Source: Ulvibacterium marinum
Lineage (GTDB): Bacteria; Bacteroidota; Bacteroidia; Flavobacteriales; Flavobacteriaceae
NCBI RefSeq assembly: GCF_003626755.1
Contig: NZ_RBCJ01000001.1
Span: 806,001-870,000 of the forward strand
Direction of reading: 5' to 3'
Length of the DNA stretch: 64,000 nucleotides
Shown here piece after piece: positions 15,262 to 49,397 of the stretch; position 1 is the first letter of the stretch; every line of letters starts with the position of its first letter. Made by a program: the position numbers and the translations under genes. Below the pieces are notes generated by a model. That model was given only the letters and a program-made list of their open reading frames with translations, searched no databases and was not told where the DNA came from.

Positions 15262-15300
15262 TGTCCAAATAGTATACAGTTCTTGTCCAATTATTTTACA
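15262..15300. promoter_or_regulatory. Paired 17-bp TGT-N11-ACA operator-like sites
   Basis: Two sites, TGTCCAAATAGTATACA (15262-15278) and TGTCCAATTATTTTACA (15284-15300), are separated by 5 bp, giving a centre-to-centre distance of 22 bp, about two helical turns. The same pairing with the same 5-bp gap is found at 24760-24798 and 49280-49318. The midpoint lies 83 bp upstream of TGGCAT at 15364. The pattern suggests cooperative binding of a dimeric activator; its identity is unknown. Confidence 0.65.
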
Positions 15301-15363
15301 TTTCATCCTCAATTTCCTTTTTTGTAAAGGCATAAGACATTGATTTATAGAATGATATGATTA

Positions 15364-15379
15364 TGGCATATAAATGGAT
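15364..15379 (+). promoter_or_regulatory. Putative sigma54-like promoter (TGGCAT-N5-TGGA)
   Basis: TGGCAT, five bases, then TGGA. The GG of the -24 element and a G 12 bases further on fit sigma54 spacing, but the usual -12 C is an A. The motif is shared with 24861 and 49382, and all three sit the same distance from a paired operator. It lies 84 bp upstream of the ATG at 15448. Another sigma factor cannot be excluded. Confidence 0.5.
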
Positions 15380-15447
15380 TAACGACTTTATTAAATAGCA
15401 CCAATATATCGATATTCGGCGCGTAACTTATACTAAAAATAACCGCC

Positions 15448-17832
15448 ATGTTCAGAAACCACTTGACACTATCGCTACGTAACCTTTGGAAAAATAAGTT
15501 GCTTTCTTCCTTAAACCTGTTGGGTCTAAGCATTGGGGTTGGCAGTGTGTTAACATTGCTATTTTCGGTCTATGCCTATTATACTGCCGACACCAATATA
15601 AGAGACCAAGAAAACATCTACTACTTTAATACCATTACCCCGAGTGGTGCAAGTTATAGGGAAACCCCATACCCTTTGTTGGATAAAATTGTAGAGACCT
15701 CTCCTCAGGTAATTGCGGGTACACACCTGCACGGTTGGGGCAATATGTGGTTGGAAAATGGTGATAAAGAACTACAGGAACGGACGGATTATGTGGACCC
15801 TGAGTTTTTTGAGGTATTCTCCCTGCCATTAAAATATGGTGATGCCAAGACCGCTTTGGAAAAGAAATATTCCATTATCCTGACCGATAGGGTCAGTAAA
15901 AAGATTTTTGGTAATACCAATCCTGTTGGTGAAACAATTACGGGGGCCGACTCTTTAAATCTTATAGTTACAGGGGTTTTTGAACCCATAAGCCCCTATT
16001 CTTCTTTTAGGTTGGGTGTAGTTCTGCCCAATGATGTGTTGAAGGACAATCCTAACTTTCTTTCCAGATTAACCTGGTCGGACAGTTTCTCACCAAGCTA
16101 TTTCAGGGTACGCCCAGATACCGATATAGCAGAGTTGACAAAACATGTAAATCAATTGGCACGGGACAATTATACGGATCCAAGCGTTTTTACCGAGTTA
16201 AAGGCCGCACCCTATTCCCAAAGTCGCATGGATGCCATCCCAGTGGTGAAAATTATCATTAACGGCTGTATTGCCGCATCTTTTTTTGTGTTGCTCATTG
16301 TATTGGTGAATCTGCTTAACCTGAATACCTCTACCATGTTTAGGCGCACTAAGGACATTGCGGTACGGAAGATTTTGGGAGGTGGGAAAAGAAGTGTTGT
16401 GCTTCAGTTCTGTTTGGAAAATGGTATTTTGGTGTTTGTTTCCATCCTCATTTCAGGTGGGCTTTTTCTTGGAGTGCTGCTCCCGGCTATGAACACTATT
16501 TTCGGGGCGGATTTTGGGGAGATCAACTTTAGTATAAAAAATGACTATCCTGTTATCCTGTATACCATTGCCCTAGGGATATTGGTCACTTTGGTGGTGG
16601 GGATCCTTCCTACCCTTCGCTTTATATCGGTGCCTATCTCCATGGGAATCAAAGGAAAGATAGCCGCTGTTAAAAGCAATTTCTTTTTTCGTAATTCCTT
16701 TATCATCCTACAATTTGCCATAGCCATTCTTTTTATATGCGGTGCGATTATTTTGAACGATCAAATTGGGTTCATGAAAAGTGCGGATGTTGGTTTTGAC
16801 CGGGAGGACGTTATTGTGGGCAACATTGCTCTCGACTATAGAAACCCGGAACAGGCAAACTCGGAATTTAGGGCCTTGTTGGATCAACTGGACGCAAACC
16901 CATATGTAAAAAGCTTTTCCACAAGTCAAGTAGTTCCTTCTGACTATAACAATAGCTTCAACCCCTTTCATGACCCGGAGACAAAAAGGGATGTCCGTAC
17001 CCGATACGCCTATACGGATAAGGATTATCTGAAAACGCTGCAAGTGCCAATAGTAATGGGAAGGGACTTTGATGAGACTATGGATACTGCCGAAGATAAT
17101 ATTGCCATTATAAATCGCAGTGCTTTGGAGGCCTTTGGATGGGAGTCTATTGAAGGAAAGCGGCTGAAGTTTAAAAATAGCGACTTTGAAGGGTATCATG
17201 TGGTAGGGGTTATGGAGAATTTTCACTACAAAGACCTTCAAAGTGGCGTTGAACCCTTGGTACACTATTATAGGGCCAAAGAAGATCTAGGTGCACACCG
17301 TTACCTTTCGGTAAAGGTGATGCCCGGCCATGGCGCGGCTGTACAGGAATTTCTAAAGCAATCCTTTGGGGGCATAGCTTCACGAAGAACCTATGAACAA
17401 GGGCTTTTAAGCGAAAAAGTCAGCAGTCAGTACAACCTGATCGAGGGCATGTTAAAAACAGTAAATGTAGTGGCTTTATTAACCATCTTTATCTCCTGTC
17501 TGGGCATGTTTGGGTTAATTTCCTTCATGGCAAAAAGGCGGATAAAGGAAATAGGTATACGAAAAGTATTGGGTGCGGGCGTGCTTAAAATAGTGGTGTT
17601 GCTGTCCAAGGACTATATACTGCTTGTGGGGGTGGCTGCCCTTATCGCCTTTCCCATGGCTTGGTATGTCATGAACGCATGGCTGTCCAGTTTTGCCTAT
17701 AGCATTACCATTCAGTGGTGGATGTTCGCCTTAGGCGGATTAATCGCTTTTTTGATTACCAGTTTTACATTGGGCATTCAGGCTATAAAATCGGCCATGG
17801 CCAATCCAGTAAAAAGTTTGAGGACGGAATAA
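15448..17832 (+). CDS. ABC transporter permease, MacB/FtsX double-domain family (divergent first half)
   Basis: A 794-residue protein with start MFRNHLTLSLRNLWKNKLLS. It opens a transcription unit, 84 bp after the promoter-like motif. The first half is divergent: its coupling segment near residue 302 reads RTKDIAVRKILGGGK rather than KEIGIRK, and the preceding helix is VLVNLLNLNTSTM instead of ACINFMNLSTA. The segment after TM1 (YAYYTADTNIRDQ) also lacks the usual DxFH motif. The second half is canonical (IKEIGIRKVLGAG near 700; tail MANPVKSLRTE). One normal and one altered coupling site in the same chain could make the two halves unequal in contacting an ATPase dimer; this is inference. Confidence 0.95.
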   Translation: MFRNHLTLSLRNLWKNKLLSSLNLLGLSIGVGSVLTLLFSVYAYYTADTNIRDQENIYYFNTITPSGASYRETPYPLLDKIVETSPQVIAGTHLHGWGNMWLENGDKELQERTDYVDPEFFEVFSLPLKYGDAKTALEKKYSIILTDRVSKKIFGNTNPVGETITGADSLNLIVTGVFEPISPYSSFRLGVVLPNDVLKDNPNFLSRLTWSDSFSPSYFRVRPDTDIAELTKHVNQLARDNYTDPSVFTELKAAPYSQSRMDAIPVVKIIINGCIAASFFVLLIVLVNLLNLNTSTMFRRTKDIAVRKILGGGKRSVVLQFCLENGILVFVSILISGGLFLGVLLPAMNTIFGADFGEINFSIKNDYPVILYTIALGILVTLVVGILPTLRFISVPISMGIKGKIAAVKSNFFFRNSFIILQFAIAILFICGAIILNDQIGFMKSADVGFDREDVIVGNIALDYRNPEQANSEFRALLDQLDANPYVKSFSTSQVVPSDYNNSFNPFHDPETKRDVRTRYAYTDKDYLKTLQVPIVMGRDFDETMDTAEDNIAIINRSALEAFGWESIEGKRLKFKNSDFEGYHVVGVMENFHYKDLQSGVEPLVHYYRAKEDLGAHRYLSVKVMPGHGAAVQEFLKQSFGGIASRRTYEQGLLSEKVSSQYNLIEGMLKTVNVVALLTIFISCLGMFGLISFMAKRRIKEIGIRKVLGAGVLKIVVLLSKDYILLVGVAALIAFPMAWYVMNAWLSSFAYSITIQWWMFALGGLIAFLITSFTLGIQAIKSAMANPVKSLRTE

Positions 17833-17837
17833 ACCTC

Positions 17838-17890
17838 TTGTCACCCTGAGCACCCGCCTGAATGACGCTGTCGAGCAGGCAGTCGAAGGA
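17838..17890. repeat. Intergenic repeat-like segment (CACCCTGAGC ... GTCGAAGGA)
   Basis: The 112-bp spacer after the permease at 15448 contains tcaccctgagc at 17841 and agtcgaagga at 17881. These two words recur as dispersed repeats in Flavobacteriia, as I recall from other genomes. Between them, gcctg (17856-17860) and caggc (17876-17880) can form a 5-bp stem. It is GC-richer than the surrounding spacers. The function is unknown and no T tract follows. Confidence 0.5.
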
Positions 17891-17944
17891 AAAAGGGGAT
17901 TATGATAAAAACTAAAGATTGAATGAATTAAGAGAACAAGAGCC

Positions 17945-20392
17945 ATGTTCAAAAACTATCTAAAAATCGCTTTTCGGAACCTATGGAAGAATAAGGTGTT
18001 TTCCTTGATCAACATCATAGGCCTTTCTATTGGGTTAAGTGCCGCTTTTGTTATCGGGACAATCATCTATTTCGATTTAACCTTTGATAAATTCCATTTG
18101 GATGGTGAGCGGATTTATCGTGTGACTACTGAATTCACATCACCAGATGGTAATTTTTATAATCCGGGCGTATCGGTACCATTGGGGCAGGCCTTAAAGG
18201 AAGAATTTGCCGGAATAGAAATCGTAAGCCCCCTATATACAATTTCCATGCATCAAGTGGAGAATACCGAAACCGAAAAAATATTCAAAAGCCCCGAAAA
18301 TATAATTCATACGGATGGTAATTACTTTCAATTGTTTCAATACAAATGGTTGGCCGGAGATGCAAATGGAATCCTATCAAATCCAAATGAGGTAGTGTTG
18401 ACGGAAAACAGGGCCAAAAGGTATTTTCCCGACCTATCACCAAATGAGATTGTTGGTAAGGTATTGACATACAATGACACCATATCTTTGAATGTCACCG
18501 GGGTTGTCGAAAATTTTAAAGACCGGAGCGACCTCATTTTTGAGGAATTTATTTCATATGAAACCATAGGGGATATAGGACTAAAGAACAGCTTGGGGAG
18601 CACAAATTGGTATAGCACAAATAGCACGTCCCAATTATTTGTAAAACTAAGCGAAAAAGCCGATGTGGTATCCGTTCAAAAACAGCTGGACCTTTTGGCC
18701 GCGGAGCATCTGGACAAAGAAATGGTGGCATTCGGCCAGAAAAGGAGATTTCATTTACAACCTTTGGCCGATATCCATTTTAATCCTAATTACGGAACGT
18801 ATGACTACACAAGAAGTCAGGCCAGTAAACCCGTTTTAATCAGTTTATCATTTGTTGCCCTGTTCCTACTCCTTTTGGGCTGTATCAATTTCATTAATTT
18901 GAATACGGCCCAGGCCACACAACGCGCCAAGGAAATCGGGATTCGTAAGACCCTTGGCGGTTCTAGAAAACAATTGGTTTTCCAGTTTTTGGGAGAGACT
19001 TTTTTATTGACCGTTACAGCAGCTGTAGTATCCTTGTTTTTTTCGTCTTGGTTGATTCGGTTATTTTCCGACTTTATTCCTCAAGGGGTAAGTTTTGGAC
19101 TTTTTAATAGTCCGGTATTGATCGGTTCGGCGATTCTTTTAGTATTGGTATTAACTTTGTTATCAGGATTTTATCCTGCCCTTGTCCTTTCCCGTTTTAA
19201 GCCGGTATCTGTACTTAAAAATCAAATTTTACCGGGCAATGACAAAACTTCCCTCCGAAAATATTTGACGGTCTTTCAATTCGCGATTGCACAAGTCTTT
19301 ATCATTGCTACCGTACTGGTCGGTAAACAGATTCACTATTTGATGACCAAGGACATGGGCTTTAAGACCGAAGCCATTGCATATTTGAGGACGCCTTATA
19401 ACGAGCCTTCAATCGATAAAAGAATCCGCCTTTTAGAAAAGCTAAAAACGGATCCTCACATACAGGATGTTATTTTAGGAGGAAATCCACCGGCCTCTCG
19501 AAGCACCTTTTCCTCAGCGGTTGTTTATCGAAATGAAGAAAATGAAGTGCAGGCTAGCCTACAATGGCTTTATGGGGGCATCGACTACAGACGCCTTTAT
19601 GGAATACCTTTATTGGCAGGGAGGGATATATTGAACGATACCATCAAGGAGTATGTAATTAATGAAACCTATATGAAACTTTTGGGCTTCCAGGAACCCA
19701 TTGAGGCGATTGGCAAATCTTTGATATTGGAAGGGGAGGCATATCCTATAGTGGGAGTGATGAAAGATTTTTACCAACGTTCTTTAAGAACCACTATTAA
19801 ACCCATGGCCTTGGTCGGCGATTGGTACCGTAACGAATATTCGCAGTTCAATACGATTCATTTTTCCATAGGAGGAAATAAAACATCAGATTTAACCAGT
19901 GACATTGCCTTGGTCGAAAACGCTTGGAAATCTATTTATCCCGATTACGATTTTGATCCTCAGTTTATCGATGATACCATTTCCAGGTTCTATGAACAAG
20001 AACACAAAACTTCGGCCCTGTTAAAATGGGCCACTGGCCTTACTATCCTTATCAGCTGTTTGGGACTCTTAGGTCTGGTGATCCACACAACCGAACGCCG
20101 AACAAAGGAAATCGGAATTCGGAAAGTATTGGGTGCCTCCCTAGGGCAGTTGAACCTATTGCTTTGTAAGGAGTTTCTGGTATTGATCGGCATTGCCTTT
20201 GTCATAGCCGCGCCAATAGCCTGGTGGGGCTTGGACTATTGGTTACAAGGCTTTGCGTATAAGACGGTCTTAAGTTGGTGGGTCTTTTTCCTTGGGGGCA
20301 TTACCATGCTCTTTATCGCCATTGCAATTATCAGTATTCGGACGATTGCCGCCGCAAATGCCAATCCCGTAAAAAGTTTGAGGACGGAATAA
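17945..20392 (+). CDS. ABC transporter permease, MacB/FtsX double-domain family (TAQ subgroup)
   Basis: An 815-residue permease starting MFKNYLKIAFRNLWKNKVFS. The helix after the first periplasmic domain is LLLGCINFINLNTAQAT, followed by the coupling segment KEIGIRKTLGGS near residue 329; the NTAQ/GETF features group it with the permeases at 20495, 32295 and 37134. The second coupling segment, TKEIGIRKVLGAS, is near 721. The second core domain has the rarer GVMKDFYQRSLRTTIKP. Its last ~345 bp are almost the same as those of the next gene, whereas the rest of the two genes differs clearly. Upstream spacer 112 bp, downstream 102 bp. Confidence 0.95.
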   Translation: MFKNYLKIAFRNLWKNKVFSLINIIGLSIGLSAAFVIGTIIYFDLTFDKFHLDGERIYRVTTEFTSPDGNFYNPGVSVPLGQALKEEFAGIEIVSPLYTISMHQVENTETEKIFKSPENIIHTDGNYFQLFQYKWLAGDANGILSNPNEVVLTENRAKRYFPDLSPNEIVGKVLTYNDTISLNVTGVVENFKDRSDLIFEEFISYETIGDIGLKNSLGSTNWYSTNSTSQLFVKLSEKADVVSVQKQLDLLAAEHLDKEMVAFGQKRRFHLQPLADIHFNPNYGTYDYTRSQASKPVLISLSFVALFLLLLGCINFINLNTAQATQRAKEIGIRKTLGGSRKQLVFQFLGETFLLTVTAAVVSLFFSSWLIRLFSDFIPQGVSFGLFNSPVLIGSAILLVLVLTLLSGFYPALVLSRFKPVSVLKNQILPGNDKTSLRKYLTVFQFAIAQVFIIATVLVGKQIHYLMTKDMGFKTEAIAYLRTPYNEPSIDKRIRLLEKLKTDPHIQDVILGGNPPASRSTFSSAVVYRNEENEVQASLQWLYGGIDYRRLYGIPLLAGRDILNDTIKEYVINETYMKLLGFQEPIEAIGKSLILEGEAYPIVGVMKDFYQRSLRTTIKPMALVGDWYRNEYSQFNTIHFSIGGNKTSDLTSDIALVENAWKSIYPDYDFDPQFIDDTISRFYEQEHKTSALLKWATGLTILISCLGLLGLVIHTTERRTKEIGIRKVLGASLGQLNLLLCKEFLVLIGIAFVIAAPIAWWGLDYWLQGFAYKTVLSWWVFFLGGITMLFIAIAIISIRTIAAANANPVKSLRTE

Positions 20393-20427
20393 GTAAGACG
20401 TAAGATTAGAGACGTTAGACATAAGAC
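20393..20427. repeat. Degenerate 7-bp tandem repeat (GTAAGAC-like)
   Basis: Directly after the permease stop codon the spacer consists of five successive 7-bp units close to gtaagac (the others carry one to three changes). They are in register and end at 20427. Such short arrays are prone to slippage; no role is evident. Confidence 0.6.
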
Positions 20428-20494
20428 CAGAGGTTTGTTATTTGGGCATAGAGCAAAGTAAAATGGGGAAATCTAGGAAATAGAAACAAGGAGT

Positions 20495-22936
20495 ATGTTT
20501 AGAAACTATTTAAAAATAGCCTTTAGAAACCTATGGAACAATAAGGCATTTTCTATCATCAACATTATTGGTCTCTCCATTGGACTTAGTGCTTCGTTTG
20601 TCATTGGGGCCATCATTTATTATGATCTTACTTTTGATAAGTTCCATCCCGATGGCAAACGTATTTATAGGGTGACCACCGATTTTAAGACCCCTGAAGC
20701 GGAATTTCATAATAGGGGGGTCGCCGTTCCATTAGGAAAGGCTTTAAAGGAAGGGGTAACGGGAATTGAGTTGACCAGCACTTTTTTTAGTGCATATGCT
20801 CAAAAGGCACGCTCAAAAGATGCGGATAAAGTTTTTAGAAACCCAAGGAACCAGATTTACACGGATAAGGAATACTTTCAAATCTTTTCTTATGAATGGC
20901 TTGCAGGGGCTCCTGAAGTTGCCCTCTCCAACCCAAATGAAGTGGTACTGACCGATAGGAGGGCCGGAAGGTACTTTCCAGGAATGCACCCTCAGGAGAT
21001 CATGGGGAAAACAGTATTATATAATGATTCCGTTCCTGTTAGGGTCGTTGGCGTGGTATCGAATTTTAAAGATCAGAGTGATTTCATTTTTCAAGAATTC
21101 CTGTCCTTGAAAACGGCCCATAGCTTTGGCCAGAAAAACCTGATCGATAATGATGAATGGAATAGTACCAATTCCGGTTCCCAGGTATTTGTAAGACTTG
21201 TGGATAACAATGCTTTGGGCAACGTACAACGACATTTGGATAGGTTATCCAAGGAAAATGAAGATGATGGAATGCACGATAGGGGTGAGACAAGGAACTT
21301 CCATCTACAGCCCTTGTCCGATATTCATCTGAATTCCGACTATATGGTTTTTGATCAAAGCGAGTATAGAGGCAGTAAGACCGTATTGAAAAATTTGACG
21401 TTCGTGGCCTTGTTTCTTCTGCTATTGGGGTGTATTAATTTTATCAATTTGAATACAGCACAGGCTACAAAGCGCTCCAAGGAAATCGGCATTCGAAAAA
21501 CACTGGGGAGTTCAAGGAAACGTTTGGTCTTTCAGTTTTTGGGCGAAACATTTCTGTTGACCGGTGCGGCGGCCATCGTTTCTTTGTTTCTTTCTTCAAG
21601 GTTACTGCTGTTGTTTAACGAATTTATACCTCCAGGACTAAACCTCGGGCTATTCTCAAGTCCGATAATTGTGGGTTGTATTATTTTGTTGTTAGGGGTC
21701 ATAACCTTGTTGTCCGGTTTTTATCCCGCCCTGGTCTTGTCCCATTTTAAACCCGTGTCCGTATTAAAAAACCAGGGATTGCCGGGAACTGGCAAGTCAA
21801 CTTTGCGAAAATACTTAACTGTTTTTCAGTTTGTTATTGCCCAGATTTTTGTCGTAGCCACTATTTTGGTGGGAAAACAGTTGAATTTTTTAATGAACAA
21901 GGATATGGGTTTTAAAACGGAGGCCATTGCCTATATGGGAACTTGGAATGATCCGGATTTAAACAAACGTCTAAACTTTGCGGAGGAGCTAAAATCCTTT
22001 CAGTTAATATCCCAGGTAAGCCTGGGCTGGAATCCTCCGGCATCTAGTAATATGCGCACTGCGGATATATCGTACACGAACAAAGGGAGAGATATCCTTA
22101 CCAGTGTACAACTGCTTTTCGGAGATCTAAATTATAGGGAACTTTTCGACATTAAACTATTGGCAGGGCGTGAGCGCCTTAATGATACCATCAAAGAGTA
22201 TGTCATCAATGAAACCTACTCCAAAATGTTGGGCTTTGAACATCCTTGGGAGGCTATTGGGGAATCCTTAAGAATGGATAACGAATTGAATCCTATTGTT
22301 GGGGTCATGGAAGATTTCAATCAAGGCTCTCTTCGGTTCGGAATTCGACCAATGGCCTTGGTAGGTGATATGTACAGAAATGATTTTTCCCTATTTGAAA
22401 TCGTTCATTTTTCCCTGCTGGGATCTTCGGAAAATTGGCCCACCATTATAGCCGAAGTTGAAGAAAAATGGAAAACCGTCTATCCCGAAATGGATTTCGA
22501 ATTCCGTTTTATGGATGACACCATAAAAAAGTTTTATGAACAGGAGCGGAGGGCGTCCATGTTATTGAAGTGGTCTGCCGGTCTGGCCATTCTAATCAGC
22601 TGTTTGGGACTCTTAGGTCTGGTGATCCACACAACCGAACGCCGAACAAAGGAAATTGGAATTCGGAAAGTATTGGGCGCCACACTAGCACAGTTAAACC
22701 TATTGCTCTGTAAGGAGTTTCTGGTATTGATCGGCATTGCCTTCGTCATAGCAGCGCCAATAGCCTGGTGGGGCTTGGACTATTGGTTACAAGGCTTTGC
22801 GTATAAGACGGTCTTAAGTTGGTGGGTCTTTTTCCTTGGGGGCATTACCATGCTCTTTATCGCCATGGCAATTATCAGTATTCGGACGATTGCGGCGGCG
22901 AATACCGATCCTGTAAAAAGTTTACGGACAGAATAA
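20495..22936 (+). CDS. ABC transporter permease, MacB/FtsX double-domain family (TAQ subgroup)
   Basis: An 813-residue close paralog of the permease just upstream, starting MFRNYLKIAFRNLWNNKAFS. Domain borders are the same: first coupling segment KEIGIRKTLGSS near residue 329, second TKEIGIRKVLGAT near 719. The periplasmic domains have diverged from the upstream copy, while the DNA from about 22592 to the stop is nearly identical to 20048-20392, including a 113-bp perfectly matching stretch. The tail NTDPVKSLRTE deviates slightly (Thr-Asp for Ala-Asn). An aaggag sits only 1 bp before the ATG, too close to act as a normal ribosome binding site. It ends its unit; a nested palindrome follows. 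Confidence 0.95.
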   Translation: MFRNYLKIAFRNLWNNKAFSIINIIGLSIGLSASFVIGAIIYYDLTFDKFHPDGKRIYRVTTDFKTPEAEFHNRGVAVPLGKALKEGVTGIELTSTFFSAYAQKARSKDADKVFRNPRNQIYTDKEYFQIFSYEWLAGAPEVALSNPNEVVLTDRRAGRYFPGMHPQEIMGKTVLYNDSVPVRVVGVVSNFKDQSDFIFQEFLSLKTAHSFGQKNLIDNDEWNSTNSGSQVFVRLVDNNALGNVQRHLDRLSKENEDDGMHDRGETRNFHLQPLSDIHLNSDYMVFDQSEYRGSKTVLKNLTFVALFLLLLGCINFINLNTAQATKRSKEIGIRKTLGSSRKRLVFQFLGETFLLTGAAAIVSLFLSSRLLLLFNEFIPPGLNLGLFSSPIIVGCIILLLGVITLLSGFYPALVLSHFKPVSVLKNQGLPGTGKSTLRKYLTVFQFVIAQIFVVATILVGKQLNFLMNKDMGFKTEAIAYMGTWNDPDLNKRLNFAEELKSFQLISQVSLGWNPPASSNMRTADISYTNKGRDILTSVQLLFGDLNYRELFDIKLLAGRERLNDTIKEYVINETYSKMLGFEHPWEAIGESLRMDNELNPIVGVMEDFNQGSLRFGIRPMALVGDMYRNDFSLFEIVHFSLLGSSENWPTIIAEVEEKWKTVYPEMDFEFRFMDDTIKKFYEQERRASMLLKWSAGLAILISCLGLLGLVIHTTERRTKEIGIRKVLGATLAQLNLLLCKEFLVLIGIAFVIAAPIAWWGLDYWLQGFAYKTVLSWWVFFLGGITMLFIAMAIISIRTIAAANTDPVKSLRTE

Positions 22937-24534: not shown

Positions 24535-24594
24535 GGATAGCCGCGTAATTTTGGAATGTTTCAACACTTACACATGGTACAGACCGTTCTTGGT

Positions 24595-24622
24595 AATCGG
24601 ACTGCCTCCCAGTCCGATTTTT
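24595..24622 (+). terminator. Intrinsic terminator after PKD protein
   Basis: A perfect 10-bp stem, aatcggactg (24595-24604) with cagtccgatt (24610-24619), a cctcc loop and a short T run (total ttttt across the stem end). It starts 61 bp past the PKD stop codon and would isolate the following promoter from upstream transcription. Confidence 0.75.
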
Positions 24623-24759
24623 CGTTAAGAGCTCGAATCTGTTTCCTCCACCTTCTCCAAATCCTATGACGAACACCTTCCCATATCGTGGGATTATCAC
24701 CTCTAGGGTCATCAACCTGAACCATTCCGATCACTTTGATCAGGCTTCGTTCAAAGTCC

Positions 24760-39592: not shown

Positions 39593-41959
39593 ATGTTAAG
39601 ACATTATTTAAACCTTTTTAAGCGAAACATTTTAAAGTATAAGTTTTCCTTTTTTATAAATATGGTAGGATTATCCACGGCCCTCGCCTGTGCTACCCTG
39701 ATTTACTTATGGGTAAATGATGAGTTGCTTACCGACAAATTCCATGAAAAAGATGATCGGATTTTTCATTTAATGGAGTTTTATGAATTTCCGCAACAGA
39801 CCATCGCGAATGAAGTGACCTCCGGAAACATGGCCCATCTCTTGCTCGAGGAAATACCGGAAGTGGTCCATGCGGTACAGGTAGCAAAATACTTGCACAA
39901 CGCCACATTGTCCATTGAGGATAAGACGATAAAGGCAGTTGGCCATTATGTGAGCCAAGACTATTTTAAGGTATTCTCTTTTCCCCTCATAGAGGGCGAC
40001 AAAAACAATATTTGGGTGGATAAGGGCACTGTAGTGCTGTCCGAAACCATAGCAAATTCCTTATTCGGTTCTTCTCAAGAAGCTATGGGAAAGACGCTGG
40101 CCCTTCAAAATGAAAAACAATTCACGGTATCCGGTATTTTTAAGGATATTCCGAGGCAATCTTCCGAAAAATTCGATTTTGTGTTGTCGTACGAGGAACT
40201 CGTGCCCTCCCAACCCAACCTCATGGATTGGGGAAGTCAATCTACCTATCTATATCTTCAAATGGAACCTGGCGTCGATGTTCTGGCCTTTAATGAAAAA
40301 ATCCATGATTTTATTCGGGAAAAGACGGGCAATAGACAAATGCATCGTACCCCTTTTATAAAAAAATACTCCGATGAATATTTGTATGGAAAATATGAGA
40401 ATGGTATACAAACGGGAGGTAGGATTGCCTATGTAAAGCTGTTCTCCATCATCGCACTGTTTATTCTGATCATCGCCTGTATCAATTTTATGAATCTATC
40501 AACGGCAAGAGCATCACGCAGACTCAAGGAAATAGGGGTCAAGAAAGTAGTGGGGGCCAATAGAAAGGCTTTGATCGTCCAATATCTAACGGAAGCGATA
40601 GCCTTAACCTGTATGGCATTGTTGCTTTCCCTAATTTATGTAGCTCTGCTACTACCGGAATTTAACCAGATTACGGGAAAACAGTTGACCATGGATTTTA
40701 GTATCGGAGTTGTACTTTCCCTATTGGCCATAACCCTCTTTACGGGGCTGCTTTCCGGCAGCTATCCGGCCCTATACCTTTCCGGTTTCAATCCCGTATC
40801 CATTTTAAAAGGAAAATTGAATACATCCATCGGTGAGGTGTGGACCCGCAAGGGACTTGTTATCATCCAGTATACGGTATCGGTAATACTTATTGTATCC
40901 GTTCTGGTAGTATACCAGCAAATTGAGTTTATACAGAACAAAAACCTGGGCTACAGTAAAGAACAGATTATTCATTTTGATCGGGAAAGAAAAACTATGG
41001 ACCAAGATCGTATGGATACTTTTTTGGCCGAATTGGAAAAGGTACCCGGGGTCATCAGTGCCTCAAGTGGCAGAAACAAGATGACCAATCAAGGTTGGGG
41101 GGTAGGTGGCTTTGACTGGGAAGGAAAAGACCCGAATGACCATACCCAGTTTCAAAACATGATCTCCTATTATGGATTACTGGAAATGCTGGATATGGAG
41201 CTTGTGGAAGGCAGGACGTTCTCCAAAAATTTTGCTTCGGAGGATACCAAGGTCATTCTTAATGAAGCCGCCATCGCCCATATGCAATTGGAAGACCCTG
41301 TGGGAAAGACCATCAATTTTCGGGGAATGGACCGGGAAATCATCGCTGTTGTCAAAAACTTCCACTTTGAATCGCTACACGAGAACATTAAACCCATGAT
41401 CATCAATTTGTGGCCAGATAGGATTAGCAAGTTTATGGTGAAAATTGCAGCAGGCAGGGAAAGGGAGACTTTGGCTATGTTGGAGGATTTATATCAAGAG
41501 TTTAATCCTGGTTTTTTGTTTGATTATAGGTTTTTGGATGATAATTACCAGGAACTTTATAAAGCGGAACAGCGTGTATCCGTTTTATCCGGATATTTTG
41601 CGGCTTTGGCCATCATCATTTCATGTTTGGGACTTTTTGGATTGGTCTCCTTTACTGCTGAGCGGAGAAAAAAGGAAATCGGAATTCGCAAAGTACTGGG
41701 AGGGAGCAGTGCCCGTATTTCTTTTTTGTTGTCCAGCGAATTTGTAAAACTGGTATTGGTAGCTATTGGAGTAGGTCTGCCCATAAGTCATTTACTTACC
41801 CATAACTGGCTTTCGGGATTTGCCTATAGGACCGGGACCAACCTTTGGTATTTTCTCTTGGCCGGAGCGTTTGTGGCCCTTTTTACTATTGTCATGGTAA
41901 GTGCGCAGACCCTGGTAGCTGCCAATCGGAACCCTGTAGATTCCCTAAGGAATGAATAA
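39593..41959 (+). CDS. ABC transporter permease, MacB/FtsX double-domain family (IKK subgroup)
   Basis: A 788-residue protein beginning MLRHYLNLFKRNILKYKFSF. GLSTALACATLIYLWVNDE in TM1, GKYENGIQTGGRIAYV before TM2 and the coupling segment KEIGVKKVVGAN near residue 312 show that it is related to the block at 52816-62453, despite lying more than 10 kb away among other subgroups. The second coupling segment near 694 is KKEIGIRKVLGGS followed by LLSSEFVKL. The tail NRNPVDSLRNE also fits that block. The second core domain is standard (VVKNFHFESLHENIKP). Its position could reflect an old duplication or a local transposition within the array. Confidence 0.95.
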   Translation: MLRHYLNLFKRNILKYKFSFFINMVGLSTALACATLIYLWVNDELLTDKFHEKDDRIFHLMEFYEFPQQTIANEVTSGNMAHLLLEEIPEVVHAVQVAKYLHNATLSIEDKTIKAVGHYVSQDYFKVFSFPLIEGDKNNIWVDKGTVVLSETIANSLFGSSQEAMGKTLALQNEKQFTVSGIFKDIPRQSSEKFDFVLSYEELVPSQPNLMDWGSQSTYLYLQMEPGVDVLAFNEKIHDFIREKTGNRQMHRTPFIKKYSDEYLYGKYENGIQTGGRIAYVKLFSIIALFILIIACINFMNLSTARASRRLKEIGVKKVVGANRKALIVQYLTEAIALTCMALLLSLIYVALLLPEFNQITGKQLTMDFSIGVVLSLLAITLFTGLLSGSYPALYLSGFNPVSILKGKLNTSIGEVWTRKGLVIIQYTVSVILIVSVLVVYQQIEFIQNKNLGYSKEQIIHFDRERKTMDQDRMDTFLAELEKVPGVISASSGRNKMTNQGWGVGGFDWEGKDPNDHTQFQNMISYYGLLEMLDMELVEGRTFSKNFASEDTKVILNEAAIAHMQLEDPVGKTINFRGMDREIIAVVKNFHFESLHENIKPMIINLWPDRISKFMVKIAAGRERETLAMLEDLYQEFNPGFLFDYRFLDDNYQELYKAEQRVSVLSGYFAALAIIISCLGLFGLVSFTAERRKKEIGIRKVLGGSSARISFLLSSEFVKLVLVAIGVGLPISHLLTHNWLSGFAYRTGTNLWYFLLAGAFVALFTIVMVSAQTLVAANRNPVDSLRNE

Positions 41960-41973
41960 AAATTAGGATAATC

Positions 41974-44388
41974 ATGCTAAAAAGCTACCTAAAAATCGCT
42001 TGGCGAAGTTTGTTTAGAAGTCCTTTTCAGACTTTCATTAAAATTTTTGGGCTATCTATCGGGATTGCTAGTGTTATGCTCATTCTTTTTCATGTAAAGG
42101 ACGAGCTGAGTTTTGACCAGGGGTTTTTGAAGTCCGATCGAATTTTTAGGGTAACGAATGAAAATTTGGGCGAAGGGGCCCGCCACTGGGCTGCGACCCC
42201 ACCGCCTATGGGCCCCCAGATGCAACAGCTATTGCCTGAAGTAGAATTAACCGTACGATTTCATCGCCCCTCGGCATATCAACTTCTGAGTCATACATCC
42301 AAAAGTGGAAATACAAGAAAGTTTGAAGAAAGAGGGGGTTTCATTGTTGATTCTGGGGCCGTAGAAATGTTTGACCTTGAATTTATCCAAGGTGATGCTA
42401 ACACAGCTCTCTCTGAAATAAACAGTATTATTTTGACCGAGGATATGGCCCAAAAGTATTTCGGCAATGAAAACCCCTTGGGGAAAATAATTATGGACAA
42501 CATTGCCCGTATTCCCTTGAAAGTCTCGGGAGTTATTGCAAAATTTCCATTTCAGACACATCTTAGATTTGACTATTTACTTTCCATGCCCACCATAAAC
42601 AATTATCAAGACCAAGGAGCCTTGTCAAGTCGGGGATGGTCTGGGTTCTATACTTATGTTCTATTGAAGGAAGATATATCATTGGCTTCGATGACATCTA
42701 AAATGGAAGAGTTCATGATTCAATTTTATGAACCTCATGGGGAGACCCCATCGGAAACCTTGGCCGCACGAAAACTCCGCCTTCAACCCATTACTGATAT
42801 TCACCTACATTCCAAATTGGAAAAGGAAATGTATCCCAACAGCGATATCACCTATGTATATATTTTTGGCCTTGTGGCTCTGTTTATTTTGCTTTTGGCA
42901 GCGGTCAATTTCATCAATATTTCTACTACACAATCTTTCGGCAGAGTTAAGGAAATTGGTGTTCGAAAAGTTGTGGGAGCCAAACGGAAACAACTTATCC
43001 ATCAGTTTTTAATGGACTCCCTGCTAGTCACATTTCTCTCTATGATAATTGCGTTAGTAATTTTCGCGTCGGCCATTCCCCACTATGATGACCTTACCTC
43101 AAAACCATTTTACCAAGAGAACATATTTACCCTATCCAATTTTGGCATTTTGTTATTGATGTTTATAAGCGTTGGAGTACTGGCCGGTCTTTATCCGGCT
43201 TTGTTCGTTTCCAGATATAGCCTTGTTTCATCGCTTAAGAGTAAAAAGAATTCTGGCCCCCGGATACAAATAGTCAGGAACTCACTTATTGTTTTCCAAT
43301 TTGTGATATCCGTGTTTATGATAGTCGGAACCATAATCATTTACAATCAGATGAACTTGTTCCATCATAAGAATTTAGGTTTTGATAAGGAGCAGGTATT
43401 GGCTGTTACCATGCATAGGGATATGTGGGAGAATTATGGGGCACTGAAAGCCAAGATGTCGGAAAATCCTGCGATAGAAAGTTTTTCAACTACAACGAAT
43501 ATTCCAGGCGATCGGTTTGGCTCTTACTTTTTTACACCTCTTGGCAATGCACAGCAGGTTACCGAAGGGTTTGATGCCCGGCTGATGTTGTCCGACGACA
43601 AGTTTCTATCTACATTGGACATTCCTATAAAAGAGGGGCGGAACTTTTTCCGTGAAGAAGCCAATACGGGAAATACCGAATTTATCATCAATGAGGCTGC
43701 GGGAAAACTATTTGGACCCGGAAAGGCTGTAGGCAAAAGACTGACCATTGGAAGGGATACGGCAAACATTGTGGGTGTGGTAAAGGACTTCAATTTTGCC
43801 TCCCTTCATTCGCCAATTGAACCTTTGGTAATACAGTATAATCCCTATGCGGGGGGCCACTTGCTTGTAAAGGTTCAGGAAAATCAATTGGCAGAAACTA
43901 TTGCATATATGGAGAAAAGTGTGGAATCTATAGCTCCATCCAGTACGTTTTCCTATTCATTTGTAGATGATAGGTTAGACGGACTTTACGATACAGAAAA
44001 TAGAATGAGCAAGGTTTTTAATGTCTTTGCACTACTATCCTTATTGATTGCGTGTCTTGGGCTTTATGGCCTTTCGGCGTATGCGGCCCGAATTAGGATA
44101 AAGGAAATAGGAATACGTAAGGTTCTTGGTTCGGGTAAAATGGATATTATAAAAATTCTGTCCAGGGATTTTTTAAAACTTGTAAGTACTGCCATACTTA
44201 TTGCAGCTCCCTTTACCTATTTCACCATGAAAAGATGGCTTCAGGATTTCGCCTATCATATTGAAATACAATGGTGGATGTTCGGTTTGGCCGGGGCACT
44301 TGTACTGTTCATTGCAATAGCCACCCTAAGCTATCAAGGTATAAAATCAGCAAATGCAAATCCGATAGAAAGCCTAAGAACTGAATAA
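41974..44388 (+). CDS. ABC transporter permease, MacB/FtsX double-domain family
   Basis: An 804-residue protein starting MLKSYLKIAWRSLFRSPFQT. The first half has LLAAVNFINISTTQSFGR before the coupling segment KEIGVRKVVGAK (near residue 326). The second, IKEIGIRKVLGSG, is near 710, and its lead-in YAARIR differs from the common FTAEQR. The second core domain is typical (GVVKDFNFASLHSPIEP). The tail is NANPIESLRTE. It has a longer first core domain, with a basic loop SHTSKSGNTRKFEER at about 106-120. Spacers are 14 bp before and 17 bp after. Confidence 0.95.
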   Translation: MLKSYLKIAWRSLFRSPFQTFIKIFGLSIGIASVMLILFHVKDELSFDQGFLKSDRIFRVTNENLGEGARHWAATPPPMGPQMQQLLPEVELTVRFHRPSAYQLLSHTSKSGNTRKFEERGGFIVDSGAVEMFDLEFIQGDANTALSEINSIILTEDMAQKYFGNENPLGKIIMDNIARIPLKVSGVIAKFPFQTHLRFDYLLSMPTINNYQDQGALSSRGWSGFYTYVLLKEDISLASMTSKMEEFMIQFYEPHGETPSETLAARKLRLQPITDIHLHSKLEKEMYPNSDITYVYIFGLVALFILLLAAVNFINISTTQSFGRVKEIGVRKVVGAKRKQLIHQFLMDSLLVTFLSMIIALVIFASAIPHYDDLTSKPFYQENIFTLSNFGILLLMFISVGVLAGLYPALFVSRYSLVSSLKSKKNSGPRIQIVRNSLIVFQFVISVFMIVGTIIIYNQMNLFHHKNLGFDKEQVLAVTMHRDMWENYGALKAKMSENPAIESFSTTTNIPGDRFGSYFFTPLGNAQQVTEGFDARLMLSDDKFLSTLDIPIKEGRNFFREEANTGNTEFIINEAAGKLFGPGKAVGKRLTIGRDTANIVGVVKDFNFASLHSPIEPLVIQYNPYAGGHLLVKVQENQLAETIAYMEKSVESIAPSSTFSYSFVDDRLDGLYDTENRMSKVFNVFALLSLLIACLGLYGLSAYAARIRIKEIGIRKVLGSGKMDIIKILSRDFLKLVSTAILIAAPFTYFTMKRWLQDFAYHIEIQWWMFGLAGALVLFIAIATLSYQGIKSANANPIESLRTE

Positions 44389-44405
44389 AACCTCAAAAAG
44401 AAATC

Positions 44406-46787
44406 ATGATAAAAAACCATTTGAAGATTGCTTGGAGAAACCTGAATACCAACCGTATGTTTTCGGGCATTAATATTTTGGGACTTTCCTTGGGCTTGGC
44501 CATTACCATTGTCCTTTTTTTGTTTATCCGGCATGAATTAAGTTTTGATTCCATATATACGGAAAAAGCAAATATCCATCGGGTGTTGGTACATACAGAA
44601 AGGGATAATGGACAGGAGACCTACGCTACTGCATCACCTGCCTTGGCCCCTACTGCAATGGCGGATATTCCGGAAATTAAATATGCCGCAAGGATGTTAA
44701 AGAACGACTTTGGGGGAACGGCTTCCGTACGGGCGAATGAGGAAAACTTTATGGAGAAAAGCTTCTTTTGGGTAGACAAGGAACTGTTGAATGTTTTTAA
44801 GGTGCCTTTTATAAAAGGAGAACCACAATCTGTTTTGAATCGCCCCAATACTGTAGTCCTGTCAGAAAGTACGGCTAAGAAATACTTTGGAGACAAGGAC
44901 CCTTTAGGAGAAATCATAAAGGTGGATAATCGTTATGAGCTTGAAGTCACTGGGGTTTATCAAGACTTTCCCGGCAACAGTACGGTAGATTGCCATGTAA
45001 TGGCCACATTTAGTACCCTTTGGTTTTTCAAGAACCCCAGTTGGAACAATATTAGCTTTGAGACCTATTGCTTACTGAATACGAATGCCAATTTGCCTAA
45101 TGTGGAATCCAAAATGATGCAGATGTTGGATAAAAACGTGGAGAAACAACATCAGTGGTACACCCTTTCCTTACAACCTTTGGAACAGGTACATCTCTAC
45201 TCTTCCAACTTTTCAAGTTCCTATGCAACCCATATCGGTGATATTTCGGAAGTTCGAAATTTATCGTTTTTGGCAATTTTGATTCTATTGATCGCCTGTA
45301 TCAATTATATGAACCTGACTACCGCCCGCTCCCAAAAAAGGGCAAAAGAGGTCGGCATCAATAAAACGCTGGGTGCGTCTAAAAAGAACTTGGTAAGCAG
45401 ATTCTATATTGAAACGGGACTACTCACCCTAATCTCAATTGGTATAGGAGTTATGCTGGCAATTTTGGCCATCCCCTTGTTCAATAGGATTATGGGGCAA
45501 AGTTTGGATATCAGCTTGCTTTTGACCATGGAATTTGGAGTTGCCCTGATGGTGGTTTGGTTGGTGACTACCTTAATTTCAGGTTTTTATCCCGCGTTAT
45601 ATCTTTCTCGTTTTTCTCCCAGAACTGTTTTAAAACCATCGCATACCCAGGGAAAGGATAATGCCCAGATAAGAAAAGGGCTGGTGGTGCTTCAATTTGC
45701 GGCGTCTGTTATTTTAATAATAGGGATACTGGTCATCTATCAGCAACTTGAATTTATGCGAAACCAAAAATTGGGCTTTGATCCGGAAAATGTAATGGCC
45801 ATTTCTACATCCGGTATTCGGGGCAATGAGCATACGGATGCCTTGATACAGGAATTTAAAGGGATAAGTGATGTATCCTATGTATCCATGGTTCAGGGCT
45901 TCCCAGGCATGGGTGTTAGTGGAAGGACTTTGAAAAAAAACCAAGAAGATCGGAATGGGTTGTATATACAAACCAATGTAACGGATGCAGGAATTATTGA
46001 TGTGCTTCAATTAAAACTTTTGGCAGGACGTACCTTACCTGAAGTAAAGCAGGAGGGCGATACTTTGGTGCAGGTAATTCTCAATAAAAAGGCAATCGAT
46101 TATTTGGGATATTCCCCGGAAGAAGCCATCGGTAAGGAAGTACAAATTGGTGCTAAGAATATCATTGTGGGTATTGTGGACGATTTTAATCACGAATCCC
46201 TACATGTGCCGATTGGGGCTTATGCCTTCCATAACAATACGGGAGAACCCAAATCATATTTGTTGGTTCGTTTCAATTCGGTCGGTGTTTCCACCATTAT
46301 CCAAAAGTTTGAAAGTGCCTTTCGGAAAATAGCACCTGAGGCCGCTTTTGATTATTCCTTTTTGAATAAAAACCTAGAACGGCTTTATGAAAGGGAGCAA
46401 CGAGCTGCCCATATAGGAATCATTTTTTGTGCTCTTGCCATTTTTGTGGCCTGTTTGGGTCTTTTTGGTCTGGCCGCCTTTATGGCAGAGCAACGTAAAA
46501 AAGAAATTGGCATTCGCAAAGTATTGGGCGCAAGTATTTTAGGAATAACCCAATTGTTGTCCGGAGACTTTGTAAAATTGGTGCTAGTAGCACTGGTCTT
46601 CGCTTTTCCAATTGCTTTTTGGATAATGGATAACTGGCTACAGGACTTTGCATACCGCATAAGTATTGATTGGACCGTTTTCGGGATTGCCGGATTAGCG
46701 GCTTTGGCCATTGCATTATTTACTGTGAGCTTTCAGTCTGTGAGAGCTGCATTGACCAATCCGGCAAAAAGTTTACGAACCGAATAA
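44406..46787 (+). CDS. ABC transporter permease, MacB/FtsX double-domain family
   Basis: A 793-residue protein starting MIKNHLKIAWRNLNTNRMFS. The first coupling segment near residue 314 reads RAKEVGINKTLGAS: the Arg/Lys of the IRK motif is Asn, a change unique in this window. The second near 699 is canonical (KKEIGIRKVLGAS). The helix before the first is LLIACINYMNLTTARSQ. The second core domain is typical (IVGIVDDFNHESLHVPI). The tail is LTNPAKSLRTE. It is 17 bp after one permease and 11 bp before the next. Confidence 0.95.
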   Translation: MIKNHLKIAWRNLNTNRMFSGINILGLSLGLAITIVLFLFIRHELSFDSIYTEKANIHRVLVHTERDNGQETYATASPALAPTAMADIPEIKYAARMLKNDFGGTASVRANEENFMEKSFFWVDKELLNVFKVPFIKGEPQSVLNRPNTVVLSESTAKKYFGDKDPLGEIIKVDNRYELEVTGVYQDFPGNSTVDCHVMATFSTLWFFKNPSWNNISFETYCLLNTNANLPNVESKMMQMLDKNVEKQHQWYTLSLQPLEQVHLYSSNFSSSYATHIGDISEVRNLSFLAILILLIACINYMNLTTARSQKRAKEVGINKTLGASKKNLVSRFYIETGLLTLISIGIGVMLAILAIPLFNRIMGQSLDISLLLTMEFGVALMVVWLVTTLISGFYPALYLSRFSPRTVLKPSHTQGKDNAQIRKGLVVLQFAASVILIIGILVIYQQLEFMRNQKLGFDPENVMAISTSGIRGNEHTDALIQEFKGISDVSYVSMVQGFPGMGVSGRTLKKNQEDRNGLYIQTNVTDAGIIDVLQLKLLAGRTLPEVKQEGDTLVQVILNKKAIDYLGYSPEEAIGKEVQIGAKNIIVGIVDDFNHESLHVPIGAYAFHNNTGEPKSYLLVRFNSVGVSTIIQKFESAFRKIAPEAAFDYSFLNKNLERLYEREQRAAHIGIIFCALAIFVACLGLFGLAAFMAEQRKKEIGIRKVLGASILGITQLLSGDFVKLVLVALVFAFPIAFWIMDNWLQDFAYRISIDWTVFGIAGLAALAIALFTVSFQSVRAALTNPAKSLRTE

Positions 46788-46798
46788 AAAAATAAAAT

Positions 46799-49216
46799 AT
46801 GTATAAACTATTCCTAAAAATTGCCACACGTTACCTGTTAAAGAACAAGCTCTATTCCTTTATCAACATTTTTGGGTTGGCCCTGGGGATTGCCTCCTTC
46901 GTTTTGATTATGCTCTATGTGAATTATGAGCGTAGCTATGACAAATTTGAAGGCTCTAAAGATGTACATCGCGTATATATGGACTATCTAGAGGGAGGGA
47001 AGTACGTTCCGGGAGACGCAAATACCTATATTGTAAGTGGCCCTACATTGAAAGAGGAATTTCCCGAAATATTGGATTTTGTGAGGCTCAGACGTTTAAG
47101 CGAAATTGTGCTCATCCAAGGCAATACCATTTTTGATCAAAATACGGGATCCCTGGCAGACCCTTCATACTTTGAAATTTTCAACCGAGACTTAAGCAAG
47201 GGAGATATAAGTAAAGCTTTGAGCGAACCCTATTCCATAGTGTTGACCAAACCATTGGCCAAAAAAGTATTCGGTGATAATGATCCTATGGGTAAAACCT
47301 TAAAGATATTTGACGGAAGAAGTCCAAGCTTTAAGGTTACAGGAGTTTTAAAGGACAATCCAAGAAACACACATATGAAGAACGACTTTTTGGTCTCTTT
47401 TGCTTCTTTTTATAGTTGGGAGTCGTTCAAGGGCGATTGGGATTTTACCTGGAACCAGAACATGTACTTTACCTATCTGAAGTTGGATCCCATGGCCGAT
47501 GCAAATCGGTTAAAGGAAAAGATTATGGGTTTTAAAGTAGAAGGCCTGCCCAACGAAAGGCATAATATAGAACCATTGGAAGCTATTCACCTCCATTCCG
47601 ATAAACCCTACGAAGCAGAGGCGAACGGTAGTGCGAGTAGGGTACATTTCCTAATGGCCATTGCCTTGATCATCATTGTTCTTTCTTGGTTGAATTATGT
47701 CAACCTTTCAACGGCCAAATCCTTGGAGCGGGCCAAGGAAACGGGAATCCGCAAGGTAGCCGGGGCACAGAAACCACAGATTGTTCTACAGTCTCTTTTG
47801 GAATCGTTGTTGCTGAACTTTATTGCCATAACAATAGCGGCAGTCATTATATTGATTGTATTGCCACTGTTCAATAGTTACATCGGAAAGGAATTAACCC
47901 TGGATTTTTCAACTATCATGGCATTTCTCCCGATAATCGGCTTTATTCTTATGGGAACCGTGGTATCGGGCATATATCCGGCCTTTATGCTAAGTAACTA
48001 TACCCCGGCCAGAGCCTTGAAGGGAAAAATCCGGACTCCTAAAAATGGTTTGACCATTAGAAAGGCCTTGATTACCGGTCAGTTTTTAGCAACTATTGTT
48101 TTGCTTATGGGTACCATAGTGGTAACTAAACAAATCAAGTTTTTGCAAGACCAACCTATTGGTGCAGATCTGGACCAAGTCGTTGCTTTTAACGGGCAGG
48201 TCTTAAATACAATGCCCGACTCCCTCTTTGTGAATAAACTGATAACCTTTAAAAATGAATTGGACAACTTTTCTTTTGTTGAGGGTACCGCTGGCGCGCG
48301 AACCTATCCGGGAGGCGGATATGATAATCTAAACTCAAGTGCCGGAATTACATTCCCTGATGGAACCAGGGACAACACAAGGATAACCTATAACTATAGT
48401 GTGGATCCAGCTTATTTTGAATTGATGCAACTGGAATTTGTAGCGGGGGAACCTTTTAAGGAAACGACCAATGGGCGGAGTCACGATATCGTTATGAACG
48501 AAAGATTCGTAAGGCATATGGGGATTTCCAGAATGGAGGACGCCGTTGGTAAGATTGTAAAATTTGGGGGACAGGATTGGATGATTTCCGGAGTCATCAA
48601 GGACTACCATCATTTCGGGTTAAAAACCGGGATTGAACCCATGATGCTGATGTACGAGTCCAATAGGGATAATCTTCTCGTAAGATTTAACAATAATGTT
48701 TCGTCCACATCAAGCATGACGGAAGCCATTGGTCAGATTAAGGATAAATGGGCGGCACTATTTCCACAAAGTACGTTTGATTATACTTTTTTAGATCAAA
48801 AGTTCGAGGCGCAATATAATGAGGACAGGGCTTTCGGGGCCGCTTTTCAAATCTTTACCATTTTGGCAATGCTCATTGCGTCCATGGGTCTTTTTGGATT
48901 AACATCATACACTTGTGTCCAAAGAAAAAAAGAAATTGGTATCCGAAAGGTAAATGGTGCAACAATAGGACAAATTCTCTCTCTTTTAAATAAGGATTTT
49001 GTGAAATGGGTAGGCTTGGCCTTTGTCATGGCCGTACCTATTTCTTGGTATGCCATGAACCAATGGTTAGAGGGTTTTGCCTATAAAACAAGTCTTAGCT
49101 GGTGGATTTTCGCCTTAGCTGGATTAACGGCACTTACCATTGCCTTGATTACCGTAAGTTGGCAAAGTTTTCAGGCTGCTATGGCCAATCCTGTGGATGC
49201 CTTGAAGGACGAATAG
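46799..49216 (+). CDS. ABC transporter permease, MacB/FtsX double-domain family
   Basis: An 805-residue protein and last gene of the 24-kb run. It starts MYKLFLKIATRYLLKNKLYS; the usual WRN is TRY. The first coupling segment near residue 313 is RAKETGIRKVAGAQ, with a helix IIIVLSWLNYVNLSTAKS before it. The second near 711 is KKEIGIRKVNGAT, followed by QILSLLNKDFVKW. The C-terminal half is closely related to that of the permease at 49499, although the N-terminal halves are of different types. The tail MANPVDALKDE departs from KSLRTE. A 282-bp promoter region follows. Confidence 0.95.
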   Translation: MYKLFLKIATRYLLKNKLYSFINIFGLALGIASFVLIMLYVNYERSYDKFEGSKDVHRVYMDYLEGGKYVPGDANTYIVSGPTLKEEFPEILDFVRLRRLSEIVLIQGNTIFDQNTGSLADPSYFEIFNRDLSKGDISKALSEPYSIVLTKPLAKKVFGDNDPMGKTLKIFDGRSPSFKVTGVLKDNPRNTHMKNDFLVSFASFYSWESFKGDWDFTWNQNMYFTYLKLDPMADANRLKEKIMGFKVEGLPNERHNIEPLEAIHLHSDKPYEAEANGSASRVHFLMAIALIIIVLSWLNYVNLSTAKSLERAKETGIRKVAGAQKPQIVLQSLLESLLLNFIAITIAAVIILIVLPLFNSYIGKELTLDFSTIMAFLPIIGFILMGTVVSGIYPAFMLSNYTPARALKGKIRTPKNGLTIRKALITGQFLATIVLLMGTIVVTKQIKFLQDQPIGADLDQVVAFNGQVLNTMPDSLFVNKLITFKNELDNFSFVEGTAGARTYPGGGYDNLNSSAGITFPDGTRDNTRITYNYSVDPAYFELMQLEFVAGEPFKETTNGRSHDIVMNERFVRHMGISRMEDAVGKIVKFGGQDWMISGVIKDYHHFGLKTGIEPMMLMYESNRDNLLVRFNNNVSSTSSMTEAIGQIKDKWAALFPQSTFDYTFLDQKFEAQYNEDRAFGAAFQIFTILAMLIASMGLFGLTSYTCVQRKKEIGIRKVNGATIGQILSLLNKDFVKWVGLAFVMAVPISWYAMNQWLEGFAYKTSLSWWIFALAGLTALTIALITVSWQSFQAAMANPVDALKDE

Positions 49217-49220
49217 ATGT

Positions 49221-49239
49221 ACTTCCCGAGAAAGGAAGT
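49221..49239 (+). terminator. Weak hairpin after permease run
   Basis: The arms acttcc (49221-49226) and ggaagt (49234-49239) form a 6-bp stem 4 bp after the stop codon, followed by only tt. It may slow or end transcription of the long run but falls short of a convincing intrinsic terminator. Confidence 0.3.
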
Positions 49240-49279
49240 TTGAAGTATAAATTTACAAAGAGAACGGCCACACTCAGAC

Positions 49280-49318
49280 TGTAAAATATTTGGACAGCCC
49301 TTGTCCAAATATTTTACA
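49280..49318. promoter_or_regulatory. Paired 17-bp TGT-N11-ACA operator-like sites (perfect inverted repeat)
   Basis: Sites TGTAAAATATTTGGACA (49280-49296) and TGTCCAAATATTTTACA (49302-49318) are exact reverse complements separated by 5 bp. This is the best preserved of the three pairs. The centre lies 83 bp upstream of TGGCAC at 49382. The right-hand site alone resembles the second site at 15284 and at 24782. Confidence 0.75.
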
Positions 49319-49381
49319 TAAAAGAAATCAAAAACTCCCCTTTTCCAATCTAAAGTTTTGATTGTTAATTAGTTGTGTTTT

Positions 49382-49397
49382 TGGCACAGAAATCGAT
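49382..49397 (+). promoter_or_regulatory. Putative sigma54-like promoter (TGGCAC-N5-TCGA)
   Basis: TGGCAC is the full sigma54 -24 consensus; after five bases comes TCGA instead of TTGC. It is 117 bp upstream of the ATG at 49499. Conservation of the motif and of its 83-bp distance to the operator pair, rather than the motif alone, is the main support. Confidence 0.55.

Follow-up and report, generated by a model that had tools for sequence, protein, structure and literature searches.

In a 64,000-nucleotide stretch of the Ulvibacterium marinum genome (positions 806,001-870,000 of NZ_RBCJ01000001.1, here called the window), three permease genes are each preceded by a pair of palindrome-like boxes that keeps an almost constant distance to a short motif further downstream. 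The locus raises the question of what holds this distance, and which proteins would act across it. Classical sigma54 promoters are served by activators of the NtrC/NifA type together with IHF, and a sequence-only reading of the window had likened the three sites to promoters of this kind. Here we describe evidence that they are very probably sigma54 (RpoN) promoters under the control of a single NtrC-type regulator, which is encoded at the head of a large permease array. Sequence, spacing, conservation, gene context and co-occurrence all support this assignment.

Three probable promoters within a permease array

All features of the three sites are on the forward strand. At promoter 1, an enhancer pair made of two 17-bp boxes (15262-15278 and 15284-15300, centre 15281; matrix score 42.0) is followed by an IHF-type near-palindrome (15333..15357) and by the -24/-12 region TGGCATATAAATGGAT (15364..15379), with TGGCAT from 15364 and GA at -13/-12; the first gene 3' of it encodes a MacB/FtsX-type permease of 794 aa (15448..17832). 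Promoter 2 has its boxes at 24760-24776 and 24782-24798 (centre 24779), its near-palindrome at 24830..24854 and its -24/-12 region, TGGCATGAAGATCGAA, at 24861..24876, with TGGCAT from 24861, and its first gene is again for a permease of 794 aa (25039..27423). At promoter 3 the boxes are inverted in orientation (49280-49296 and 49302-49318, centre 49299), and the near-palindrome (49351..49375), the -24/-12 region TGGCACAGAAATCGAT (49382..49397, TGGCAC from 49382) and the first gene, for a permease of 788 aa (49499..51865), follow in the same order.

Each pair is built from palindrome-like boxes of the form TGT-N11-ACA with a 5-bp spacer, and the box centres are 22 bp apart, or two helical turns. 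Direct reading places the pair centre 83, 82 and 83 bp from TGGCA at promoters 1, 2 and 3, exactly the distances previously reported, with gaps of 63, 62 and 63 bp from the end of the pair. The T of TGGCA stands 84, 178 and 117 bp from the ATG, and here too the differing values given earlier were right. Outside the conserved blocks the three upstream regions are unlike one another; the orthologues of promoter 2 in the same genus (L101, L103) have the identical gap of 62 bp.

The downstream motif, as the pattern TGGCAYRNARATSGAW, has three exact matches in the 64 kb, and four at one mismatch or fewer against 0.28 expected, a window count that is circular if taken alone because the pattern was built from the three sites themselves. 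The 17-bp box, at up to three mismatches, gives 10 matches in the window against 1.58 expected. A weight matrix was derived from 55 promoters that leave out the three window sites but include three more from U. marinum itself and orthologues of site 2 from its genus. Run over the window, this matrix recovers the three sites and nothing else, and over the reversed window it recovers nothing. The same matrix, which is blind to sites straddling the cuts between stretches, found no further array promoters in L077, L062, L063 or the rest of the window. The -24/-12 string alone was tried on the whole genome and was of little use without the pair, with 30 matches against 22 in the reversed control.

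The window (1..64000, +) is the central part of a 107-kb array (C6:770091-876912) in which 41 permease genes lie on one strand; 40 of them code for at least 700 aa and the other is split. Its 42 open frames match three window permeases (BLAST, E < 1e-46), and Pfam scans covered some of them. Four promoters of this type were found for the array, whose tolC, adaptor and ATPase genes are located to the left of the window. The fourth copy, the tolC promoter (L076:19368-19484), lies between the regulator gene and tolC with TGGCA at 19470 and a gap of 63; unlike the three window sites, it has the C at -12 (TAGC).

Spacing across the family

In a search of 397 genomes of the family with a pattern that fixed only the pair skeleton and TGGC, at a gap of 48-78 bp, matches were obtained in 43 genomes, and the reversed pattern gave none in every genome row listed. 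The matches listed comprise 65 distinct pair-TGGC combinations, with gaps of 62-65 bp in 51, of 51-54 bp in seven and of 67-76 bp in seven, and none at 55-61 bp. The binomial probability of 51/65 at 62-65 bp under a flat distribution is ~2e-28, and that of 44/65 at 62-63 bp under one flat over 48-78 bp is ~7e-37, values that serve as a guide only, the genomes being related. A search of relatives for the same spacing had been suggested as a check, and its outcome is favourable: the conserved blocks and the gap persist in many genera, with intervening DNA that varies. The upstream activator sites are helically phased, falling into the 62-65 class (51 combinations) and a short class (51-54 bp, seven combinations) that is one helical turn less, and two gap classes one turn apart are expected for a looping activator. 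All seven short-gap promoters are upstream of permeases.

Seven combinations outside both gap classes were dropped before bases were counted, leaving a first set of 58 promoters (51 and seven of the listed combinations). In four of those dropped, the TGGC lies within the -12 box of a promoter already counted, and the other three (L040, L055, L059) involve other pairs and are probably chance. The targets of the 58 are 29 tolC-macA genes with a divergent regulator, 28 MacB/FtsX permeases and one DUF2807 gene; for seven of the 29 tolC-macA targets the better match is macA, ~1.4 kb downstream. The DUF2807 target, at L079:5174-6037, is the only non-module target in the U. marinum genome, and a DUF2807 gene also occurs within the array (51916..52638, +).

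The regulator at the head of the array

The NtrC-type response regulator, P0001, is encoded on the minus strand at L076:17833-19197 (C6:764.8-766.2 kb), where it heads the array ~40 kb to the left of the window. Its gene adjoins that of its histidine kinase (L076:16484-17833, minus strand) and is divergent from a TolC-like gene, after which come the adaptor, the ATPase and the permeases. A receiver domain (PF00072), a sigma54 AAA+ domain (PF00158) and a Fis-type HTH (PF02954) all score over cut-off, and the sigma54-contact loop is GAFTDA, as against GAFTGA. One rpoN is present in the genome, together with five strong matches to sigma54 activators (four besides P0001) and seven weak ones; the loops of the three other activators that were read are GAFTGA, GAFTSA and GSFTGA.

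Orthologues of P0001 (at least 61% identity) are found in 61 of the 397 genomes, and their distribution follows that of the promoter: 42 of the 43 promoter genomes have one, versus 19 of the 354 others, in which the orthologue is present without an exact pattern match. The sole promoter genome that lacks the orthologue, G226, has a gap of 74 bp, and its pattern match is probably chance. The rpoN gene, found in all 43 promoter genomes and in 394 of the 397 overall, was rejected as a discriminator because it is too common to separate them.

Of 80 regulator loci, Zobellia, Maribacter and Cellulophaga being among their sources, four were too near a contig end, leaving 76 usable. The pair stands upstream of the regulator in 66 of these, with TGGCA at 62-65 bp in 61, CGGCA in four and TGGTA in one. 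It was not found upstream of the regulator in the other ten (L206-L210, L212, L213, L216-L218), which come from two Aquimarina, Plebeiobacterium, Odoribacter and six Bacteroidales MAGs; their regulators, at 57-63% identity, may rely on a different enhancer. A second set of 60 promoters was drawn from regulator loci of named genomes. These were selected on the score of the pair and on GG[CT]A lying 62-65 bp beyond it; their sequences are absent from the first set, and some may come from the same or near strains.

A near-palindrome between the proposed enhancer and the -24 element

Between the pair and the -24 element we find a near-palindrome, YAA-N4-YTGAT-W-ATCAR-N4-TTR, centred 19 bp 5' of the T of TGGC, at about -45. 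Its mean number of mismatches in the 58 promoters is 3.2 out of 16 in register and 9.6-12.0 at eight other registers, and in the 60 further promoters 2.8 in register and 9.3-12.1 elsewhere. In a few promoters it is off register by 1-2 bases (at least nine mismatches in 7/58 and 6/60), and those with a 65-bp gap are, by eye, among them. Each half is the IHF consensus WATCAANNNNTTR, as quoted in the available part of PMC5963220. When scored against WATCARNNNNTTR, in which the R at position 6 is our own looser form of that consensus, at least one half lies within one mismatch (shift of up to 2) in 53/58 and 60/60 promoters, and the same half-site test on a downstream control stretch gives 0/58 and 6/60.

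In the three window copies, with mismatches counted by hand, the left half, with 0-1 mismatches, fits better than the right: promoter 1 fits the consensus in its left half and only weakly in its right, and the left half of promoter 3 is consensus-like. In short-gap promoters the near-palindrome, judged by eye, keeps its distance to the -24 element, which puts the missing turn between it and the pair. The genome encodes two DNABII genes (PF00216).

The -24/-12 element

We number the T of TGGC as position 0, so that the G at -13 is position 13 and the C that follows it in a classical -12 box is position 14; the sigma54 consensus is given as TGGCACN5-7TTGCT in the accessible text of PMC12316311. 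The TGGCAC of the -24 element, with its invariant GG, appears as TGGCAY at all three window sites. The first set has A at position 4 and a pyrimidine at position 5 in all 58 promoters, a purine at position 6 in 57, T at position 11 in 56 and G at position 13 in 58; since the search fixed TGGC only, the A, Y and R after TGGC and the G at -13 count as support. Position 14 is A in 23, T in 18, C in 12 and G in five, the C at -12 being absent in 46/58 promoters and in all three window sites, where its replacement (GA for GC) had been noted correctly. The second set has T at position 11 and G at position 13 in all 60, and C at position 14 in 17.

According to the accessible portion of PMC9723704, -24/-12 promoters of F. 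psychrophilum sigma54 (SM4) have been mapped, including one at groES, in an organism with one sigma54 and three activator-domain proteins, and it is because of this mapped promoter that groES was chosen as an outside check. Among 30 groES loci, 11 were not recognised, and candidates in the other 19 were picked by eye (that of L127 lies farther upstream, L128 offers two, and that of L115 is without a pyrimidine after TGGCA); all 19 have G at -13, and the base at -12 is C in 11, A in four and T in four. The C is rarer in array-type promoters (29/118) than at groES (11/19; Fisher p 0.0056), and looseness at -12 is common to both. From the sequences, the unusual -12 box seems to be a habit of the family, and the SM4 logo of F. 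psychrophilum may already show a loose -12. The original reading had left two options for this box, a local sigma54 preference or another factor; as the groES promoters keep the G, often without the C, the former fits better and the latter less well.

Alternative explanations

Three sites found by eye are weak on their own, and it could be asked whether their layout is a matter of chance; with 51/65 combinations at 62-65 bp, and the reversed pattern silent in every genome row listed, this is scarcely credible. Equal spacing might also stem from recent copying of one upstream region along with the permease genes, and as the permeases are paralogues, shared descent of the promoters is probable. 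However, the three regions are unlike outside the blocks, the distances to the ATG differ, and the blocks and the gap are kept over many genera with variable linkers, which makes such copying very improbable. Differing linkers and a gap kept across genera likewise uphold the earlier argument that the spacing is not explained by copying of whole gene starts.

It is also quite improbable that the pair is an ordinary activator or repressor operator, with the real promoter a sigmaA-type or ECF one nearby and TGGCA belonging to another factor. Such a scheme would account for a -12 box that is off consensus in all three sites, but not for the sigma54 register, in which 58/58 and 60/60 promoters place a G 12 positions beyond the GG core, nor for a co-occurring regulator with a sigma54-interaction domain and a gap class one turn shorter, as looping would predict. 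A better contender, though still an unlikely one, takes the central near-palindrome for an operator that serves one more specific regulator and not for a bend site: it is symmetric, classical IHF sites are asymmetric, and in the window all three copies have a weak right half. Against this, an IHF half is present within one mismatch in nearly all promoters of the first set and in all of the second, far above the control; the element occupies the place between the enhancer and the -24 element where IHF sits at classical sigma54 promoters; and two PF00216 proteins are encoded. Taken at the level of sequence, the cross-genus spacing, the IHF-type element, the co-occurring NtrC-type regulator and rpoN argue for the layout first suggested, that of sigma54 with an enhancer-binding protein. 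Telling against it are the C missing at -12, the GAFTDA loop of P0001, the 19 genomes that have the regulator but no exact pattern match, the ten regulator loci in which the pair was not found and the four other activators of the genome, and rpoN is so widespread that it discriminates little.

Proposed working and relation to known systems

In the sigma54 scheme that we infer for phosphorylation, binding, bending, start sites and signal, the histidine kinase would phosphorylate P0001, two dimers of which would settle on the two boxes, centred ~109 bp before the start, and form an AAA+ ring. An IHF/HU-type protein would bend the near-palindrome centred near -45, and the ring could then open RNA polymerase-sigma54 waiting at TGGCAYR-N4-TVG, so that tolC, adaptor, ATPase and permease blocks would be switched on together. 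More tentatively, as a possibility that we hold with appreciable doubt, flavobacterial sigma54 may have a relaxed -12 recognition (T-V-G, whatever the base at -12), for which a rigid enhanceosome would compensate; the symmetric bend site would perhaps bind a homodimeric DNABII protein, a fixed helical phase would set promoter choice, and one regulator would govern the whole duplicated exporter-permease family, with new blocks joining via a ~120-bp cassette.

The array promoters resemble the classical sigma54/NtrC/IHF type in having an enhancer ~100 bp upstream, an IHF-type element, a -24/-12 element, a response-regulator activator and rpoN. They differ from it in their degenerate -12 base, their near-fixed gap of two classes, their near-palindromic bend element and a regulon of duplicated permeases. 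The SM4 promoters of F. psychrophilum belong to the same family as the array host; their targets, in the available text, are chaperones, motility and envelope genes, with no permease array in the table given there (PMC9723704).

A 2025 paper predicted that sigma54 controls COG0577 FtsX-type permeases in Bacteroidia, which its authors call first evidence (PMC12316311). This prediction shares target type and sigma factor with the array, and its accessible text is silent on a regulator, an enhancer, a bend site, a spacing and an array. The open literature on Bacteroidetes sigma54, MacB/FtsX arrays, ADOP and IHF sites gave, among the matches listed, no description of the regulator, the enhancer pair, the bend element, the phase rule or the array.

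Darobactin exporter/ADOP models of NCBIfam are the best or near-best for the adaptor, the ATPase and the one permease scored, and none reaches its curated cut-off (bits against cut-off: DarD 301.1/375, DarC 195.5/450, DarB 109.6/700, ADOP 275.1/622.3); unlike in DarBCD/ADOP systems, 41 permease genes share one head operon in the array. The kinase and P0001 match the AtoS, ZraS, AtoC and ZraR models, all far under the curated cut-offs, and by that test are not members of the AtoSC/ZraSR two-component systems.

On the sigma54 reading, the run of 41 permease genes is put forward as a regulon for which regulator, kinase and sigma factor can each be named, and its sequence rules (pair, bend element, -24/-13 and phase) are open to tests in many genera. 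Two questions can be put to the test directly: which requirements sigma54 has at -12 in this phylum, and whether symmetric IHF-type sites are in use there.

Further features of the promoters and the array

Promoters of the tolC type tend to have a second copy of TGGCA 23-25 bp further on, close to where transcription is expected to start (L076:19493 in the U. marinum genome). In the first set it is present in 25/29 tolC-type promoters versus 0/29 others, and a second GGCA copy occurs upstream of the regulator gene in 54 of the 66 pair-bearing regulator loci (among L139-L204 and L215). Position 36, where the -13 G of the second copy would be expected, is G in only 4/60. Within the array, the split permease, alone among the 41, is read as two frames (32295-34043 and 34149-34676; 582 and 175 aa), and a PKD-domain gene (PF18911; 23290-24534, same strand) breaks the permease run just 5' of promoter 2.
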